Shown here: positions 1 to 9,238 of the stretch, in pieces
Layout of the letters: every line of letters begins with the position of its first letter
Position numbering within the stretch: position 1 is the stretch's first letter
Source of the DNA: an uncultured Bacteroidota bacterium
GTDB taxonomy: Bacteria; Bacteroidota; Bacteroidia; Bacteroidales; P3
Length of the DNA stretch: 64,000 nucleotides
NCBI GenBank assembly: GCA_902784865.1
Contig: CACZWL010000007.1
Coordinates: 40,106 to 104,105 of the forward strand
Direction: 5' to 3'
Program-made: the position numbers and the translations under genes
The notes under the pieces: generated by a model
What the model was told of the DNA's origin: nothing
The model's input: the letters and a program-made list of their open reading frames with translations, nothing else
Databases searched by the model: none

Positions 1-1311
1 CTCACCTCCTATGGCCTCGAGGAGACCATGAACATCACCAACCGTCTGGTCTACGAAATCCGCACCGTCAAGATCGACATCCTGCGCGAGGAGATGGCCG
101 CCGACCAGGCCACCCGCATCAAATACGCCTCGAAGTACGCCTCCTGCTCCAACTACTGGAAGTACAGCAACGAGCAGAACAAGGCCCTCCGCAACCTCAA
201 CACCATGGGCGTCAAGCAAGACGTCGAGAAAGAGTACACCGAGTGGGCACGCCGTCAGCGCTCGCCGAAGTACAGCCGCGCCCTCGACCTCATCCGCGAC
301 GGCTACGCCGCCCGCAGCACCGTCGAGGAAGCCGGCCTCTACCTCCGCGAAGGCATCCTCTCCGGCCCCGAGGCACCGCTCTTCGCCGCCCGCGTCAGCC
401 GCACCTTCGCCCACATGCTCGGGCAGGACAAGAACGCCGACCTCTCGCCCCTGCAGAACTACATCGACAACTTCTACAAGGACTACGACGAGAACGTCGA
501 CCGCCGCCTCGTCGCCGGCCTCTTCAAGTACGTCGTCGACAACATGAACGCCGACCTCTGCCCCAAGTTCCTCCTCGACGCCAACAAGAAGTACAAAGGC
601 AACTTCGACAAGTACGCCGCCGACCTCTACAACAAGTCTGTCTTCGCCAACGCCGAGGCCATGGCCAAATTCATGCAGAAACCCAACGCCAAGACCCTCG
701 AGAAAGACCCCCTGGCCGTCGCCGGCACCGAGGCCCTCAACGCCTACATCGCCATGAACGAGCAGGTGCCCCAGCAGGCACAGGACGACCTCACCCGCGG
801 CATCCGCGACTTCACCGACGGCATACTCCAGATCAACCAGGGCAGAAAACTCATGTCGCCCGACGCCAACAGCACCATCCGCCTCACCTACGGCAACGTC
901 ATGTCCTACGACCCCAAGGACGGTGTCTCCTACCACTACTACACCACCATGAAGGGTGTCATCGAGAAGGAAGGCCCCGTCGGCGGCGAATTTGAAGTGC
1001 CCACACGCCTCAAAGAACTCTACGCCAAAAAAGACTTCGGCCGCTACACCAACCGCCGCGGCGAACTGCCCACCTGCTTCATCACCAACAACGACATCAC
1101 CGGCGGCAACAGCGGCTCGCCCGTCATCAACGGCAAGGGCGAACTCATCGGCCTCGCCTTCGACGGCAACAGCGAAGCCATGAGCGGCGACATCGACTTC
1201 GAAGAGAACCTCCAGCGCTGCATCTGCCTCGACAGCCGCTACATGCTCTGGGTCATCGACGTCTATGCCGGCGCCAGAAACCTCATCGCCGAGATGGACA
1301 TCGTCCGATAA
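1..1311 (+). CDS. dpp7: S46 family dipeptidyl-peptidase, DPP7 type (3' part only)
   Basis: The frame is open from base 1, so the N-terminal part (signal peptide, catalytic His and Asp) lies outside the window; about 436 codons are visible. The C-terminal catalytic block GGNSGSPV holds the serine at bases 1111-1113. Eighteen codons later the residue is Gly (FDGN, bases 1165-1167). In this family Gly at that position marks DPP7, which cleaves dipeptides with hydrophobic P1 residues, and Arg marks DPP11. The protein ends in the usual EMDIVR-like tail. The family acts in the periplasm of asaccharolytic Bacteroidota to supply dipeptides. The next gene begins 9 nt after the stop. Family is secure; subtype rests on one residue. 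Confidence 0.88.
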   Translation, partial: LTSYGLEETMNITNRLVYEIRTVKIDILREEMAADQATRIKYASKYASCSNYWKYSNEQNKALRNLNTMGVKQDVEKEYTEWARRQRSPKYSRALDLIRDGYAARSTVEEAGLYLREGILSGPEAPLFAARVSRTFAHMLGQDKNADLSPLQNYIDNFYKDYDENVDRRLVAGLFKYVVDNMNADLCPKFLLDANKKYKGNFDKYAADLYNKSVFANAEAMAKFMQKPNAKTLEKDPLAVAGTEALNAYIAMNEQVPQQAQDDLTRGIRDFTDGILQINQGRKLMSPDANSTIRLTYGNVMSYDPKDGVSYHYYTTMKGVIEKEGPVGGEFEVPTRLKELYAKKDFGRYTNRRGELPTCFITNNDITGGNSGSPVINGKGELIGLAFDGNSEAMSGDIDFEENLQRCICLDSRYMLWVIDVYAGARNLIAEMDIVR

Positions 1312-1320
1312 CACCCACCG

Positions 1321-3639
1321 ATGAAACAAGTCCAGCGACAGCAACTGCAGCAGAAATTCTCTCCGCAACAGATACAACTCATGCGTCTGCTGCAGTTGCC
1401 TGTCACTGACCTTGAACAGGCCATCAAGGAGGAGATAGAGAAAAACCCCCTCCTCGAAGCCGAAATGCCCGAGGAAACCACCGACATCGACAACCTGGCC
1501 GCCCCGGACAACAACACCTCCGACTGGGACTCCGACGACGAGGACTTCGGCTACGACTACCGCGAGCACCTCGACAGCGACCCCAACCTACAGCGCCACG
1601 AGTTCATCGTCGCCGACACCGCCTCGGACGCCGACCGTCTGACAGCGCAACTCGTCAGCCGCAACCTCACCGAACGCCAGCAACTCATCGCCTCCGAACT
1701 CATAGGCTCGCTCGACGACGCAGGCTACCTGGGCCGCGACCTCGACCTGCTGGCCAACGACCTAGCCTTCCGGCAAGGCATCGACACCTCGCCCGACGAA
1801 GTCCTCGACGTCTTGCACATCATCCAAAGCCTCGACCCCCCCGGCATCGGCGCACGCAACCTCCGCGAGTGCCTCCTCCTGCAGCTCCACCGCATGCAGC
1901 ACAACGACAGCGTCAGCACCGCCGAGGCCATCATCGAACACCACTTCGACGACTTCGCCAACCACCGCTACGAGCGCCTCTGCAACGCCCTCGGCATCGA
2001 CGACGACACCCTGCAGCAGGCCGCCGACGTCATCCGCCACCTCAACCCCAAGCCCGGCAGTTCCGACGCCGACAGCGCCCTCGCCGCGCAGACCATCACC
2101 CCCGACATCGTCCTCCAGCAGCACGACGGGCAGCTCTCCTTCTACGTCAACGACAGCAGCCTGCCGCGCCTCAGCCTAAATACCTACTACACCGACATGC
2201 TCAGCCAGCTGGAAGCCTCGAAAGGCGACCGCGAGACCCTCCAGTTCCTCCGCACCAAGCAAGCCGACGCGCAAGGCTTCATCGACCTACTGCAGCAGCG
2301 CCACGACACCATCGTCCGCATCATGCGCTACATCCTGCGCCACCAGCGCCAATACCTCCTCACCGGCAACCCCGACCTCCTGCAGCCACTGCGCCAACGC
2401 GAGGTAGCCGAAGCCACAGGCCTCGACATCAGCACCGTCTCGCGCATGGCCAACAGCAAGTTCCTCCAGACCGACTTCGGCACCATACCCCTCAAGGACT
2501 GCTTCTCCAAAGGCATGGCCGTCGACTCCGGCGGCGAAATATCCGTCGAGGCCATCAAGCAACGCCTGGCCGACGCCATCGGCGCCGAAGACAAGCAGGC
2601 GCCCCTCTCCGACGATGCTCTGGCGCGCCTCCTCAACGCACAAGGCTACCCTCTGGCACGTCGCACCGTGGCCAAATACCGCGAGCAGCTGGGATTCCCC
2701 GTCGCACGCCTCCGCCGCGCACTCATGCTCCTCGTCCTCATGCTCGGCGCCCTGGCTGCCGACGCACAGGTATCCTACTACGACTCCCTCATCTCCGCAC
2801 GCCTCGAGAAGCCCAAAAAGGTCGTCACCGTCAAGGCACCGAAACCCGACCCCAAGTCCAAAGGTGCCGCAGCCAAACCCGCCCCCTCCAAGGGCGCCGA
2901 GCCGCGCCAGCCGCAGCTGCCCGCACCTGCCTCCGACGTGGTCGCTCCCGACGCCACGCCCCTCGACCGCGCCATGGTACCCCTCTGGTACGACGCCTTC
3001 CCCCACCACCGCGTCAACCCCCTCGGCCGCACACAGCTCGACATGCTGCCCGACGAGATTATCCTCAAGCTGGCCACCGACTCCGCCGGCTTCTGCTTCC
3101 CCGTCCGCAACCAGAAGACCTCCAACTACGGCTGGCGCTGGCAGCGAGGACACCACGGCGTCGACATAGCCCTCCGTACCGGCGACCCCGTCTATGCCGC
3201 CTTCAGCGGTATCGTCCGCGTCGCCTCGCCCATGGGCGGCTACGGCAACTGCGTCGTCGTTCGACACCCCAACGGCCTTGAGACCCTCTATGGCCACCTC
3301 TCCAAAATCAACGTCCGCCCCAATCAGGAGGTATCCGCTGGCGACATCCTCGGCCTCGGCGGCAACACCGGCAACTCCACCGGCCCGCACCTCCACTTCG
3401 AATGCCGATTCCTATACCAGACCTTCGACCCCGAGTGGATCCTCGACTTCAACAACTTCACCCTCCGCACCCGCCGACTCCACCTCGACAAGACCTACTT
3501 CGGCATCCGCCAGCCCGGCAGCGGCCGCGAGTCGCACCACAAACCCGACGCCAGCCTCATCAAAGAGCCCACCCAGACCAACGGCAAACGCAAACAAACC
3601 CTCGCGCCTGCGCGTACATTTAATATAAAAGATTTCTGA
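1321..3639 (+). CDS. rpoN: RNA polymerase sigma-54 factor fused in frame to an M23 metallopeptidase
   Basis: One 772-codon frame. Residues 1-50 are sigma-54 region I (Gln/Leu-rich, IEKNPLLE). The core-binding and HTH regions follow, and the RpoN box ARRTVAKYRE lies near residue 450. Bacteroidota RpoN normally stops after VARLR(K/R)-x-L, but here VARLRR runs on through ALMLLVLML and AADAQ, which resembles a signal peptide, into an M23 endopeptidase with HHGVD, YGHL and GPHLHFE zinc/catalytic motifs. Sigma-54 is about 470-480 aa in this phylum, so the M23 part is an added domain of about 300 aa. A cytoplasmic sigma factor joined to a normally secreted peptidoglycan hydrolase is odd. Loss of a single stop codon, a sequencing error, or internal initiation at 2725 could explain it. 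Confidence 0.9.
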   Translation: MKQVQRQQLQQKFSPQQIQLMRLLQLPVTDLEQAIKEEIEKNPLLEAEMPEETTDIDNLAAPDNNTSDWDSDDEDFGYDYREHLDSDPNLQRHEFIVADTASDADRLTAQLVSRNLTERQQLIASELIGSLDDAGYLGRDLDLLANDLAFRQGIDTSPDEVLDVLHIIQSLDPPGIGARNLRECLLLQLHRMQHNDSVSTAEAIIEHHFDDFANHRYERLCNALGIDDDTLQQAADVIRHLNPKPGSSDADSALAAQTITPDIVLQQHDGQLSFYVNDSSLPRLSLNTYYTDMLSQLEASKGDRETLQFLRTKQADAQGFIDLLQQRHDTIVRIMRYILRHQRQYLLTGNPDLLQPLRQREVAEATGLDISTVSRMANSKFLQTDFGTIPLKDCFSKGMAVDSGGEISVEAIKQRLADAIGAEDKQAPLSDDALARLLNAQGYPLARRTVAKYREQLGFPVARLRRALMLLVLMLGALAADAQVSYYDSLISARLEKPKKVVTVKAPKPDPKSKGAAAKPAPSKGAEPRQPQLPAPASDVVAPDATPLDRAMVPLWYDAFPHHRVNPLGRTQLDMLPDEIILKLATDSAGFCFPVRNQKTSNYGWRWQRGHHGVDIALRTGDPVYAAFSGIVRVASPMGGYGNCVVVRHPNGLETLYGHLSKINVRPNQEVSAGDILGLGGNTGNSTGPHLHFECRFLYQTFDPEWILDFNNFTLRTRRLHLDKTYFGIRQPGSGRESHHKPDASLIKEPTQTNGKRKQTLAPARTFNIKDF
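2725..3639 (+). other. Possible independently translated M23 peptidase (internal ATG of the rpoN fusion)
   Basis: The ATG at 2725 is in frame with rpoN and lies exactly where RpoN proteins normally end. Translation from here gives a 304-aa protein with a short hydrophobic segment (LLVLMLGALA) and a plausible cleavage site before Gln, then a Lys/Pro/Ala-rich linker and the M23 domain. This would be a normal exported LytM-type endopeptidase. The signal peptide lacks basic residues unless the upstream RLRR is counted. I infer that either the two proteins are made separately from overlapping frames, or the fusion is processed. Confidence 0.4.
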
Positions 3640-3642
3640 CCC

Positions 3643-4137
3643 ATGAAAAAGACCAACCTCTCCGACTATAACCGCGACCTCATTCCCGACGGCAGCCCCT
3701 GGACCGTGGCCGTCGTCGCCGCCGAGTGGAACCCCGAGGTCACCGACGCCATGCTCGACGGCGCCGTCAGCACCCTCAGCCAGCACGGCGTCCAGCCCAA
3801 GAACATACGCGTCTTCCGCGTCCCCGGCACCTACGAACTCTCCTATGCCGCCGACACCCTGGCCAAGCTCGACAGCATCGATGCCGTCATCTGCATCGGC
3901 TGCGTCATACAGGGCGAGACGCGCCACTTCGAATTCATCTGCCAGGCTGTCTCCCAAGGCCTCACCAATGTGTCCCTGGTCAACCACAAACCCGTCATCT
4001 TCAGCGTCCTCACCACCGACACCATGGAGCAGGCCCTCGACCGCGCCGGCGGTCGCCATGGCAACAAGGGTATCGAAGGCGCAATCACCGCCCTGAAGAT
4101 GCTACAGTTCACCGACCTAGCCGTATCCCAAGCATGA
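3643..4137 (+). CDS. ribH: 6,7-dimethyl-8-ribityllumazine synthase
   Basis: A 164-aa protein of normal RibH length. It condenses 5-amino-6-ribitylaminouracil with 3,4-dihydroxy-2-butanone 4-phosphate in riboflavin synthesis. Visible family signatures are the substrate-binding FRVPGTYEL segment, CIGCVIQGETRHFE, and the late GNKG motif after a conserved Arg. It starts 3 nt after the rpoN-M23 stop and overlaps fmt by the ATGA junction, so these genes are probably co-transcribed. ribD is in the same window, about 31 kb away. Confidence 0.95.
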   Translation: MKKTNLSDYNRDLIPDGSPWTVAVVAAEWNPEVTDAMLDGAVSTLSQHGVQPKNIRVFRVPGTYELSYAADTLAKLDSIDAVICIGCVIQGETRHFEFICQAVSQGLTNVSLVNHKPVIFSVLTTDTMEQALDRAGGRHGNKGIEGAITALKMLQFTDLAVSQA

Positions 4138-5110: not shown

Positions 5111-5143
5111 TTTGGTGCGTATTAAAAAAAGTTCTTACATTTG
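5111..5143 (+). promoter_or_regulatory. Bacteroidota-type promoter of the HU gene
   Basis: TTTG at 5111-5114 and TACATTTG at 5136-5143 are separated by 21 nt, matching the Bacteroidota consensus TTTG-N19-21-TAnnTTTG. The leader to the HU ATG at 5204 is about 55 nt and AT-rich. Confidence 0.85.
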
Positions 5144-5203
5144 CATCGTGATAATTCACAGAGAAATAACAAATATTTATCAACCTTAAAAACATTTTCA
5201 ATC

Positions 5204-5464
5204 ATGAACAAAACTGAACTTGTTAACGCAATGGCCGAGAAAACCGGCATGACCAAAGTCGCCGCCAAACAGGCTATGACCGCTTGCTTCGACACCATCC
5301 AGGAGCAGCTCAAGAAGGGTGAGAAAGTTACCCTCATCGGCTTCGGTACCTTCAGCGTTGTGAAGCGCAAAGCCCGCACCGCCAAGAACCCCCGCACCGG
5401 CAAGCCCGTCAAAGTGGCCGCCAAGAAGGTCGCCAAGTTCAAAGCCGGCAGCAAGCTCATCTAA
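5204..5464 (+). CDS. hup: HU family DNA-binding protein
   Basis: An 86-aa basic nucleoid protein. It begins MNKTELVNAMAEKTGMTK and has the diagnostic GFGTF turn and the arm motif ARTAKNPRTGK, which inserts Pro into the minor groove. Length is typical of HU. The ATG at 5204 is preferred over an upstream in-frame start because it follows the promoter at a sensible distance and gives the standard N terminus. It is monocistronic, with its own promoter and terminator. Confidence 0.96.
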   Translation: MNKTELVNAMAEKTGMTKVAAKQAMTACFDTIQEQLKKGEKVTLIGFGTFSVVKRKARTAKNPRTGKPVKVAAKKVAKFKAGSKLI

Positions 5465-7804: not shown

Positions 7805-9238
7805 TCAGACAAAGAACTGGGAATCAAAGTTCAAGAGATAGACACGGTCGGTAGCACGCGTAAAAGCCGTGTAGATCCACCGCAGGTAGTCGCGGTCCAC
7901 AGGCCGCTCGCCCAGGTAGCCCTGGTCCACGATTACCGTCCGCCACTGCCCGCCCTGCGTCTTGTGGCACGTCAGCGCATAGGCGAACTTCACCTGCAGC
8001 GCGTTGTAGTAAGGGTTCTGCCGCATCTCGCGCAGGCGGTCGGCCTTGTTCGGCAGGTCGGCATAGTCCTCCATCACCGTCGTGTAGAGCCGCTCGGCCT
8101 CCTCGCTCGTCAGCGACGGCGACTCGCTGTAGAGCGTCGACAGCAGCAGCTTGCAGTCGCGCGCCTCCTCGTCGGGATAGTCCACGAACCTCAGCGTCGC
8201 GTCGGCGAAGCGGAAGCCGTACAGTTCCTGCACGTTCCTCACGCTCAGCACCTCCACGATGTCGCCGTTGGCGATGAAGCCGATGTTGCTGTCGGTGTCG
8301 AGCCAGTAGTAGTTGTTCTTCACCACCATCAGGTAGTCGCCCGCGTTGACCTCCTCTTCGCGGAAGAGGACGCTGCCGCGAACCCCTTGGTTGAAGAGGT
8401 TGGCGCGCTTGTTCGAGCGGCAGACCACCACCACTTGTTCGAGCGAGAAGTCGTCGTATTCGCGGTAGAGTGTCTCCATGAGGTCCTCGCCCTGCAGGCG
8501 CACCACGTCGTCGTAGCCTTCGAGGTCGAAGAGGGGCAGCGAGGCCTCGTCGCCTTCGTCGAGGCCGGCAATCTGGTCGCGCAGGGCCGTGGCGCCTGCC
8601 AGGATGCCCGAGAGCTGCTGCTGGCGCACCACCTCGGTCAGCTCGCAGGCTATGATGTTCAGACTGAACGAGGCGGCGAGGTATCGTTCGTCGAGGGCGG
8701 GGCTCTCGCTCTGTCCCACGGGGGGCAGCTGCGCCGTGTCGCCGATGAGCATCAGGCGGCAGTGGTTGCCGCTGTAGACGTACTCTATCAGGTCTTCCAG
8801 CAGGCTCTGCCGCGAGGCGGTGGGTTCGAGGCCTATCATCGACGCTTCGTCGACGATGAAGAGGGTGTAGGTGTGTTTGTTGATGCCGCGTACCGTGCGC
8901 ACCACACCGGTGGCGTCGGTGGCCGTCATGTAGATTTTCTTGTGGATGGTGTAGGCCGCACGGCCGGAGTAGCCGGAGATGACCTTGGCGGCGCGGCCCG
9001 TGGGAGCAAGCAGCACCGTGTTGACGCGCAGCCGCGGCAGCGTCTGTATCAGCGCCGACACCAGCGAGGTCTTGCCCGTGCCGGCATAGCCCTTCATGAG
9101 GAACAGCGAGCGCGGGTCGCGGTCGTATAGGAACCGCACCATGGAAGTGCAAGCATCCTGCTGTCCGCCCGTGGGGGTGTGCGGAAAGCAGGATAGGATG
9201 AGCTTTCTTACCGTCTGCTCAACGTCGAGGGGAGCCAC
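7805..9238 (-). CDS. RecD-like ATP-dependent DNA helicase (AAA, UvrD_C_2)
   Basis: A 477-aa superfamily 1B helicase. Walker A is GYAGTGKTS (residues 50-58), the Walker B region is LFIVDEASM, motif III-like GDTAQLPP follows, and the C-terminal UvrD_C_2 part has CHKTQGGQW and YTAFTRATDR. This compact form resembles stand-alone RecD/Dda-like helicases common in Bacteroidota, not RecD of RecBCD. It is transcribed away from gpsA and downstream of secG with a 12-nt spacer, so it is probably the last gene of a TPR protein-secG-helicase operon. Confidence 0.88.
   Translation of the reverse strand: MAPLDVEQTVRKLILSCFPHTPTGGQQDACTSMVRFLYDRDPRSLFLMKGYAGTGKTSLVSALIQTLPRLRVNTVLLAPTGRAAKVISGYSGRAAYTIHKKIYMTATDATGVVRTVRGINKHTYTLFIVDEASMIGLEPTASRQSLLEDLIEYVYSGNHCRLMLIGDTAQLPPVGQSESPALDERYLAASFSLNIIACELTEVVRQQQLSGILAGATALRDQIAGLDEGDEASLPLFDLEGYDDVVRLQGEDLMETLYREYDDFSLEQVVVVCRSNKRANLFNQGVRGSVLFREEEVNAGDYLMVVKNNYYWLDTDSNIGFIANGDIVEVLSVRNVQELYGFRFADATLRFVDYPDEEARDCKLLLSTLYSESPSLTSEEAERLYTTVMEDYADLPNKADRLREMRQNPYYNALQVKFAYALTCHKTQGGQWRTVIVDQGYLGERPVDRDYLRWIYTAFTRATDRVYLLNFDSQFFV

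Follow-up and report, generated by a model that had tools for sequence, protein, structure and literature searches.

How does a transcription factor of the cytoplasm come to share one reading frame with an enzyme that cuts the cell wall, and what happens to it when that enzyme is exported? Sigma-54 is usually viewed as a soluble cytosolic factor controlled via activators, a picture broken by a gene in a 64,000-nucleotide stretch of DNA from an uncultured Bacteroidota bacterium of the order Bacteroidales (assembly GCA_902784865.1, contig CACZWL010000007.1, positions 40,106 to 104,105 of the forward strand; the whole stretch is hereafter called the window). In this gene, a sigma-54 (RpoN) is joined through a predicted signal peptide to an M23 endopeptidase. 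We propose that in this uncultured, gut-type bacterial group the sole copy of sigma-54 is probably made joined to an export signal and a wall-cutting enzyme, and probably passes through a membrane-bound state.

Results

Architecture of the fused gene

The gene is a frame of 772 codons that runs from ATG 1321 to TGA 3637-3639 with no internal stop. Frame reading and Pfam domains thus agree with an earlier note on this DNA, which had described an uninterrupted frame with a complete RpoN and a complete M23 domain. Its features are as follows.

1321-3639, plus strand: fused gene, rpoN, predicted signal peptide and M23, 772 amino acids (aa) (frame reading, Pfam)
1324-1458, plus strand: sigma-54 region I, activator-interacting domain, aa 2-46 (Pfam PF00309 Sigma54_AID, 2.6e-13)
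1606-2190, plus strand: sigma-54 core-binding domain, aa 96-290 (Pfam PF04963 Sigma54_CBD, 9.5e-55)
2242-2718, plus strand: sigma-54 DNA-binding domain, aa 308-466 (Pfam PF04552 Sigma54_DBD, 4.7e-44)
2656-2682, plus strand: ARRTVAKYR, aa 446-454, which we take to be the RpoN box (alignment to solved sigma-54)
2704-2721, plus strand: basic n-region ARLRRA, aa 462-467, from sigma-54's own C-terminus
2722-2754, plus strand: hydrophobic h-region LMLLVLMLGAL, aa 468-478
2725-2727, plus strand: in-frame ATG, put forward by the earlier note as an internal start; not conserved, and no basic n-region is left behind it
2755-2769, plus strand: c-region and predicted signal peptidase I site AADA/Q, cut between 2766 and 2767 (A482/Q483)
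2770-3147, plus strand: predicted periplasmic linker starting VSYYDS, aa 484-609
3148-3432, plus strand: M23 peptidase domain, aa 610-704 (PF01551 Peptidase_M23, 3.3e-31)
3151-3165, 3295-3297 and 3388-3396, plus strand: M23 zinc ligands and catalytic His (HHGVD, His659 and HLH, respectively)

Region I, the core-binding domain and the DNA-binding domain follow one another in the order of sigma-54, both by Pfam and by alignment to solved chains. The alignment to these chains extends to residue 467, which pairs with chain residue 475 of 477; sigma-54 thus normally ends at the point where the hydrophobic segment begins, exactly where the junction had been placed before. Among the fusions described below, the Lys of the RpoN box is replaced by Ser or Asn in L088, L091 and L094. 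The M23 half likewise appears intact: its domain scores 107.8 bits against a Pfam cut-off of 28.7, HHGVD, His659 and HLH do not vary among the 24 fusions that were aligned, and this part aligns with active M23 enzymes (nearest solved sequence 9gy1_A, E 4.7e-26).

The junction as a signal peptide

The junction was scored in every fusion for net charge of the n-region, for a peak of the 12-residue mean Kyte-Doolittle value and for a small residue followed by Gln after it, the first match being taken. All 71 fusions found in the genus carry an n-region with a net charge of +2 to +5 and a hydrophobic peak of at least 1.95 (median 2.73), and in all of them a small residue plus Gln follows the core (AQ in 63, SQ in 5, GQ in 3); a few of the SQ and GQ calls may miss the true site, since the first match counted. 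Among control windows, this pair turns up in 15.8% of 1542 from the RpoN body (243 by proportion) and in 8.8% of 923 from the tail, and an equally hydrophobic 12-mer lies elsewhere in the protein in only 2 of the 71 fusions. According to the portion available of PMC5837995, signal peptidase I cleavage in Bacteroidetes exposes Gln, the “Q-rule”. The features expected of a signal peptidase I substrate, i.e., basic n-region, hydrophobic core, small residue and Gln, are therefore found together in 71 of 71 fusions. Judged by this anatomy, the junction is a complete, cleavable Sec-type signal peptide with a predicted cut at A482/Q483. Two of the options raised in the earlier note gain from these data: proteolytic separation of the two parts is well supported by the predicted site in every fusion, and, provided that the gene is translated as one chain, the topology implies a sigma factor that is tethered to the membrane for at least a short time.

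Distribution of the fusion

A survey of the genus covered 99 genomes, 96 of them with sigma-54, and the locus was read in all 96. An M23 domain lies in frame behind the RpoN box in 71 of these genomes and does not in the other 25, which rules out a sequencing or assembly error and confirms the fusion as real. Two separate genes in all close relatives would, by the earlier note, have refuted the fusion; the outcome went the other way. Each of the 71 fused genomes has exactly one sigma-54 match, and two of the fusions stand in public records (L127, ONJY01000004.1; L128, CACYIK010000011.1). A survey of the family (149 genomes, overlapping the genus set) added 13 genomes of the genus, 8 with a frame of fused length and 5 with one of unfused length, and yielded sigma-54 in 63 genomes of 11 other genera. 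Among these 63, a frame of fused length (836 aa) was found in one, G107 of genus g10:

L237 (G107:C45), frame 918-3425 of the reverse complement, minus strand: G107 fusion

Read along the frame, it consists of sigma-54, a hydrophobic segment ending in GQ, M23 and LysM, and is followed by ribH and a formyltransferase-like gene. The likeness of its linker to those of other members of its genus (L122) leads us to regard this second fusion as apparently independent in origin. Order-wide (295 genomes, 278 with sigma-54), no fused-length frame appeared among the matches listed, of which the frames of G445 (712) and G388 (689) were not inspected; among the listed M23 relatives (393 genomes, 105 with a match at E 1e-55), the only frame longer than 450 aa was the window's own.

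Origin from neighbouring genes

In the other genera read, the gene order is rpoN, a membrane protein of about 200 aa with a multi-pass appearance, M23 and, where the stretch extends far enough, ribH. The intervening hydrophobic protein, of unassigned family, was seen at L115, L124, L218, L224, L236, L060, L208 and L122, i.e., in other genera and in two unfused members of the genus. Of the 25 unfused genus genomes, 23 have M23 as the gene immediately following rpoN; the exceptions are L060, which retains the intervening gene, and L087, which lacks M23 at this place. Relative to the rpoN stop, the earliest potential start of M23 falls between 1 nucleotide (nt) upstream and 88 nt downstream, with a 4-nt overlap in five of the 25 (L004, L006, L009, L050 and L096), and just after the stop in the frameshifted L095. 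In L095 (G070), rpoN is split across two frames in the DNA-binding domain, either as a broken gene or through a sequencing error.

Most unfused members of the genus end sigma-54 with a basic tail, an acidic residue and the stop. M23 in unfused relatives starts on its own, with a separate n-region, and its frame relative to that of rpoN can be any of the three. In the fusion, the former n-region of M23 has been dropped and sigma-54's RLRR is used instead. The idea that only a stop codon was lost is thus too simple.

A tree of RpoN with 118 rows groups all 71 fusions together with L087 on one branch (SH-aLRT support 95), with two state changes. The position of L087 (G012) within this branch may reflect loss, transfer or tree error. 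A mixture-model tree, in which the 71 fused rows were represented by 36, alongside 22 unfused rows and 6 others but without L087, also gave two changes when free; the tree with the fused rows held together was 8.0 log units better, with an approximately unbiased p (p-AU) of 0.672. A single origin within the genus is hence neither rejected nor proven. So the path would have led from loss of the middle gene through overlap to one fusion in the genus, with one apparent loss, and to another in G107.

The genes that flank the fusion in the window are the following.

28-1311, plus strand: upstream neighbour, C-terminal part of an S46 peptidase, gene start outside the window (PF10459)
3643-4137, plus strand: downstream neighbour, lumazine synthase, ribH (PF00885)

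Further downstream, a small frame at 5141-5464 resembles a DNA-binding protein of the HU type, and a frame at 7805-9238 on the minus strand resembles a UvrD/RecD-like ATPase, both as judged by eye.

Activator and promoter-like sites

The genome from which the window comes has one full-length enhancer-binding activator domain (C14, 6.0e-67) with a GAFTGA motif, and five more matches that are partial and weak. The AAA+ domain of this activator occupies residues 15-185 and a Fis-type helix-turn-helix stands at its end, with no sensory domain in front. One such activator was found in seven of eight other fused genomes tested, and two in G047.

A strict -24/-12 pattern, TGGCACRNNNNTTGCW, occurs 7 times in the same genome versus 0 in the reversed control, and 98 versus 29 times in 20 fused genomes. 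We read 48 of the sites, a non-random set made up of 8 from G000 and G001 (L244-L250 and L252) and 40 picked by hand, partly for AT-rich spacers. Genes that start shortly downstream encode ClpC (five fused genomes), a VTT-domain protein (three), a sodium/proton antiporter (two), DUF3467 (two), thioredoxin and a trypsin-like/PDZ protease of the DegP type, and sites also lie upstream of clpB, lon, htpG and hsp20 in single fused species. In six fused genomes (L246, L284, L293, L296, L299 and L302), an unknown protein of about 170 aa starts 21-30 nt past a perfect site, which makes it a candidate core target of this sigma-54; the two copies tested, L246 and L299, have no Pfam match.

Among the genus genomes that could be parsed, clpC is preceded by a site with at most one mismatch in 7 of 10 fused and in 4 of 9 unfused ones. 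This test matched 27 of 30 genomes, and the start motif was missed in 7 of the 27, among them G022, G179, G038, G037, G173 and G099 and no others from the genus set, none of which enters the 10 fused and 9 unfused genomes; by coordinates, clpC of G022 has a perfect site some 54 nt upstream, which stands outside the 7 of 10. The presence of the site in both fused and unfused genomes argues that control of clpC predates the fusion and survived it. Before secA, the site is perfect in G000 and G001 and has one mismatch in G028.

In the accessible part of PMC9723704, sigma-54-type promoters of Flavobacterium psychrophilum are placed before groESL, lon, dnaK, grpE-dnaJ, htpG, skp and clpB, and the corresponding part of PMC12316311 places such promoters before grpE and groES in Bacteroides thetaiotaomicron and describes chaperones and proteases as enriched in the Bacteroidota sigma-54 regulon. 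By analogy, clpC and the other putative target sites fit these published targets. Taken together, the intact domains, the activator and the -24/-12 sites make this sigma-54 look functional.

Discussion

A proposed precursor with built-in feedback

The explanation that best accounts for the locus as a whole, and that we consider probable, is one type-II precursor that is cleaved at Sec and carries a built-in feedback on sigma-54. The polypeptide would place sigma-54 inside the cell, one hydrophobic segment in the inner membrane and the M23 endopeptidase in the periplasm. The segment would be recognised by the signal recognition particle (SRP) and Sec, M23 would be translocated, and signal peptidase I would cut after Ala482, exposing Gln483 and freeing M23. 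The remnant of the signal peptide would keep sigma-54 anchored at least briefly, until a further protease frees or destroys it. Efficient export would then hold sigma-54 at the membrane, sequestered or turned over, and overload of export or folding would leave more of it able to transcribe, and the usable sigma-54 would raise chaperones and proteases, together with secA in the case of the window's close relatives. We infer these steps, from synthesis as one chain through cleavage and membrane residence to the whole of the regulatory step, with unequal confidence. A single chain with a working embedded signal peptide is very likely; that sigma-54 is anchored for a meaningful time is likely; that the anchoring is used for regulation is a tentative proposal; and that sigma-54 behaves as a Sec pre-protein, with the state of SecYEG, SecA and signal peptidase I setting the free sigma-54 for chaperone, protease and export genes, is a possibility that we put forward more cautiously still.

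Several considerations shape this proposal. Since no stop separates the two parts, sigma-54 without its tail can arise only by proteolysis. An RpoN domain held tight against the membrane may be hindered in DNA binding; tethering need not inactivate a sigma factor, because artificially membrane-tethered sigma-32 was functional and kept its homeostatic control, as reported in the available part of PMC3866087. Because the fused protein is the only sigma-54 detected and sites lie before chaperone and protease genes, built-in feedback would be its most likely use, and an activator without a sensory domain makes a sensing role for the sigma factor itself attractive. By analogy with membrane-bound sigma-32 in Escherichia coli, the tethered sigma-54 might sense export or proteostasis, a link that fits the promoter data better than the coupling of wall state to transcription suggested in the earlier note.

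Weighing the proposal

A number of findings weigh against this proposal. Unfused relatives also have activators of similar length, which weakens the argument for sensing, and TGGCACRNNNNTTGCW is only weakly above its control outside the fused genomes (21 versus 13 in 13 unfused genomes; 10 versus 6 in 11 genomes of other genera). We rejected secA as a conserved sigma-54 target, the site being missing in the remaining parsed fused genomes; for unfused genomes this test is uninformative, as many escaped start-motif parsing. We also rejected tsaE: five recurrent matches (L294, L295, L298, L312 and L314) lie within its coding frame, where they coincide with a conserved motif of the protein (ARNL...) that precedes the P-loop, and part of the site excess is therefore not promoters. 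Further sites likewise fall in coding frames or have no gene start nearby (e.g., L283, L304, L305, L307, L308, L311, L313 and L318). L087 has an unfused rpoN with ribH immediately behind it and M23 missing, and sits on a long branch; nested as it is among the fusions, it argues that the fusion can be lost or avoided. An AlphaFold model of the window's protein with L127 and L128 (mean predicted local distance difference test score 40, predicted template-modelling score 0.24) is too poor for use.

The strongest rival, which we regard as doubtful though by no means negligible, is a passive fusion: the chain is made as one and cut at export, the signal-peptide stub could be removed at once by clipping or degradation to give an ordinary sigma-54, and only a 1:1 ratio of synthesis is fixed, in an arrangement kept because it is harmless and hard to undo. 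Its origin from adjacent genes that sometimes overlap by 4 nt would suit such a history, as would its loss or absence in L087, and the clpC site of fused and unfused relatives suggests a target set independent of the fusion. Yet 71 species spanning a deep portion of the tree have kept the fusion, which seems to have been reversed no more than once; it arose again in G107, and all sigma-54 of these cells would have to pass through the tethered state.

Less probable again are two products from one frame, in which most of the M23 is made from an internal start, ATG 2725 in the window and GTG at Val461 in many relatives, and sigma-54 bears an unused passenger. An ATG is indeed present at 2725, as the earlier note had pointed out, and the Val just before ARLRR is encoded by GTG in 42 of 56 Val codons versus 903 of 1607 in the RpoN body, an excess carried by related species that are hence not independent; an extra short product from a GTG start is possible in some relatives. 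In the window, however, the codon at Val461 is GTC, and the in-frame candidates past the RpoN box, ATG 2725 and ATG 2740, both lie within the hydrophobic core with no basic residue remaining; the product from ATG 2725 would start MLLVLMLGALAADAQ and lack the basic n-region. Start codons were scanned in the 68 fusions that could be parsed (L088, L091 and L094 were missed by the motif). The scanned stretch holds no ATG in 27 of them, and in seven the scanned range offers no ATG, GTG or TTG as far as the final basic residue of the RLRR stretch. Two of the seven have no codon that could open a signal peptide: in L043 no start codon precedes the site, and the sole one of L045 is an ATG towards the end of the core. 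Initiation at ATG 2725 as a general rule was rejected on both counts, being neither conserved nor followed by a basic n-region. The long form would in any case persist, as there is no stop in between. Finally, a sequencing, assembly or binning artefact, to which the origin of the window in a 43-contig genome might point, is refuted by identical junction anatomy in 71 separate genomes, public records L127 and L128 included, and can be set aside with near certainty.

If the more cautious possibility, sigma-54 as a Sec pre-protein, is true, this sigma-54 would be a self-reporting transcription factor, with sensor, signal and regulator in one chain, and the co-released wall enzyme would tie the export signal to envelope growth. 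The fusion shows how a bidirectional link between envelope and genes could arise from neighbouring genes, and it opens to experiment the question of whether what happens to a signal peptide at the Sec machinery can determine how active a sigma factor is.

Comparison with known systems

No sigma-54/M23 fusion or membrane-anchored sigma-54 was reported in the literature searched, a body from which most subscription journals fall outside. In Bacillus subtilis, pro-sigma-K, which has an N-terminal pro-sequence, is a sigma factor activated via membrane proteolysis; the present protein would share the tie to membrane proteolysis but belongs to a different sigma family, and pro-sigma-K has no exported enzyme. 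The M23 half is like endopeptidases of the LytM/ShyA/DipM type in its Peptidase_M23 domain with HxxxD, His and HxH motifs, but unlike them in being attached to sigma-54; some fusions end in LysM (G107).

Closest in layout is IutY of Pseudomonas putida, whose sigma is freed by proteolysis, first by Prc and then by RseP (accessible part of PMC9249621). As far as that part describes IutY, the likeness is one of layout only: a cytosolic sigma domain first, a single membrane segment, a periplasmic domain last. IutY is an extracytoplasmic function (ECF) sigma of the sigma-70 type with a FecR-like anti-sigma domain, whereas here sigma-54 is joined to an M23 enzyme, and the segment, a membrane anchor in IutY, is here built like a signal peptide and carries a predicted signal peptidase I site. 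Pfam found neither an ECF sigma nor a FecR-like anti-sigma domain in the fused protein, and membership in the IutY-like fusions was rejected.

The regulons of sigma-54 in F. psychrophilum and B. thetaiotaomicron, in the portions of the reports available, resemble the present one in having sites before chaperone and protease genes, and those portions mention no fused or membrane-bound sigma-54. E. coli sigma-32, from what the accessible text of PMC3866087 describes, serves proteostasis genes and does so while at the membrane, as is proposed for the fused sigma-54; its natural association is peripheral and SRP-dependent, and it is a soluble member of the sigma-70 family without a covalent membrane segment or exported domain. 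Compared with membrane-passing sigma fusions, the arrangement is therefore new in its sigma family, its predicted cleavable signal peptide and its enzyme cargo, and it would be a natural counterpart of the membrane tethering done artificially with sigma-32.

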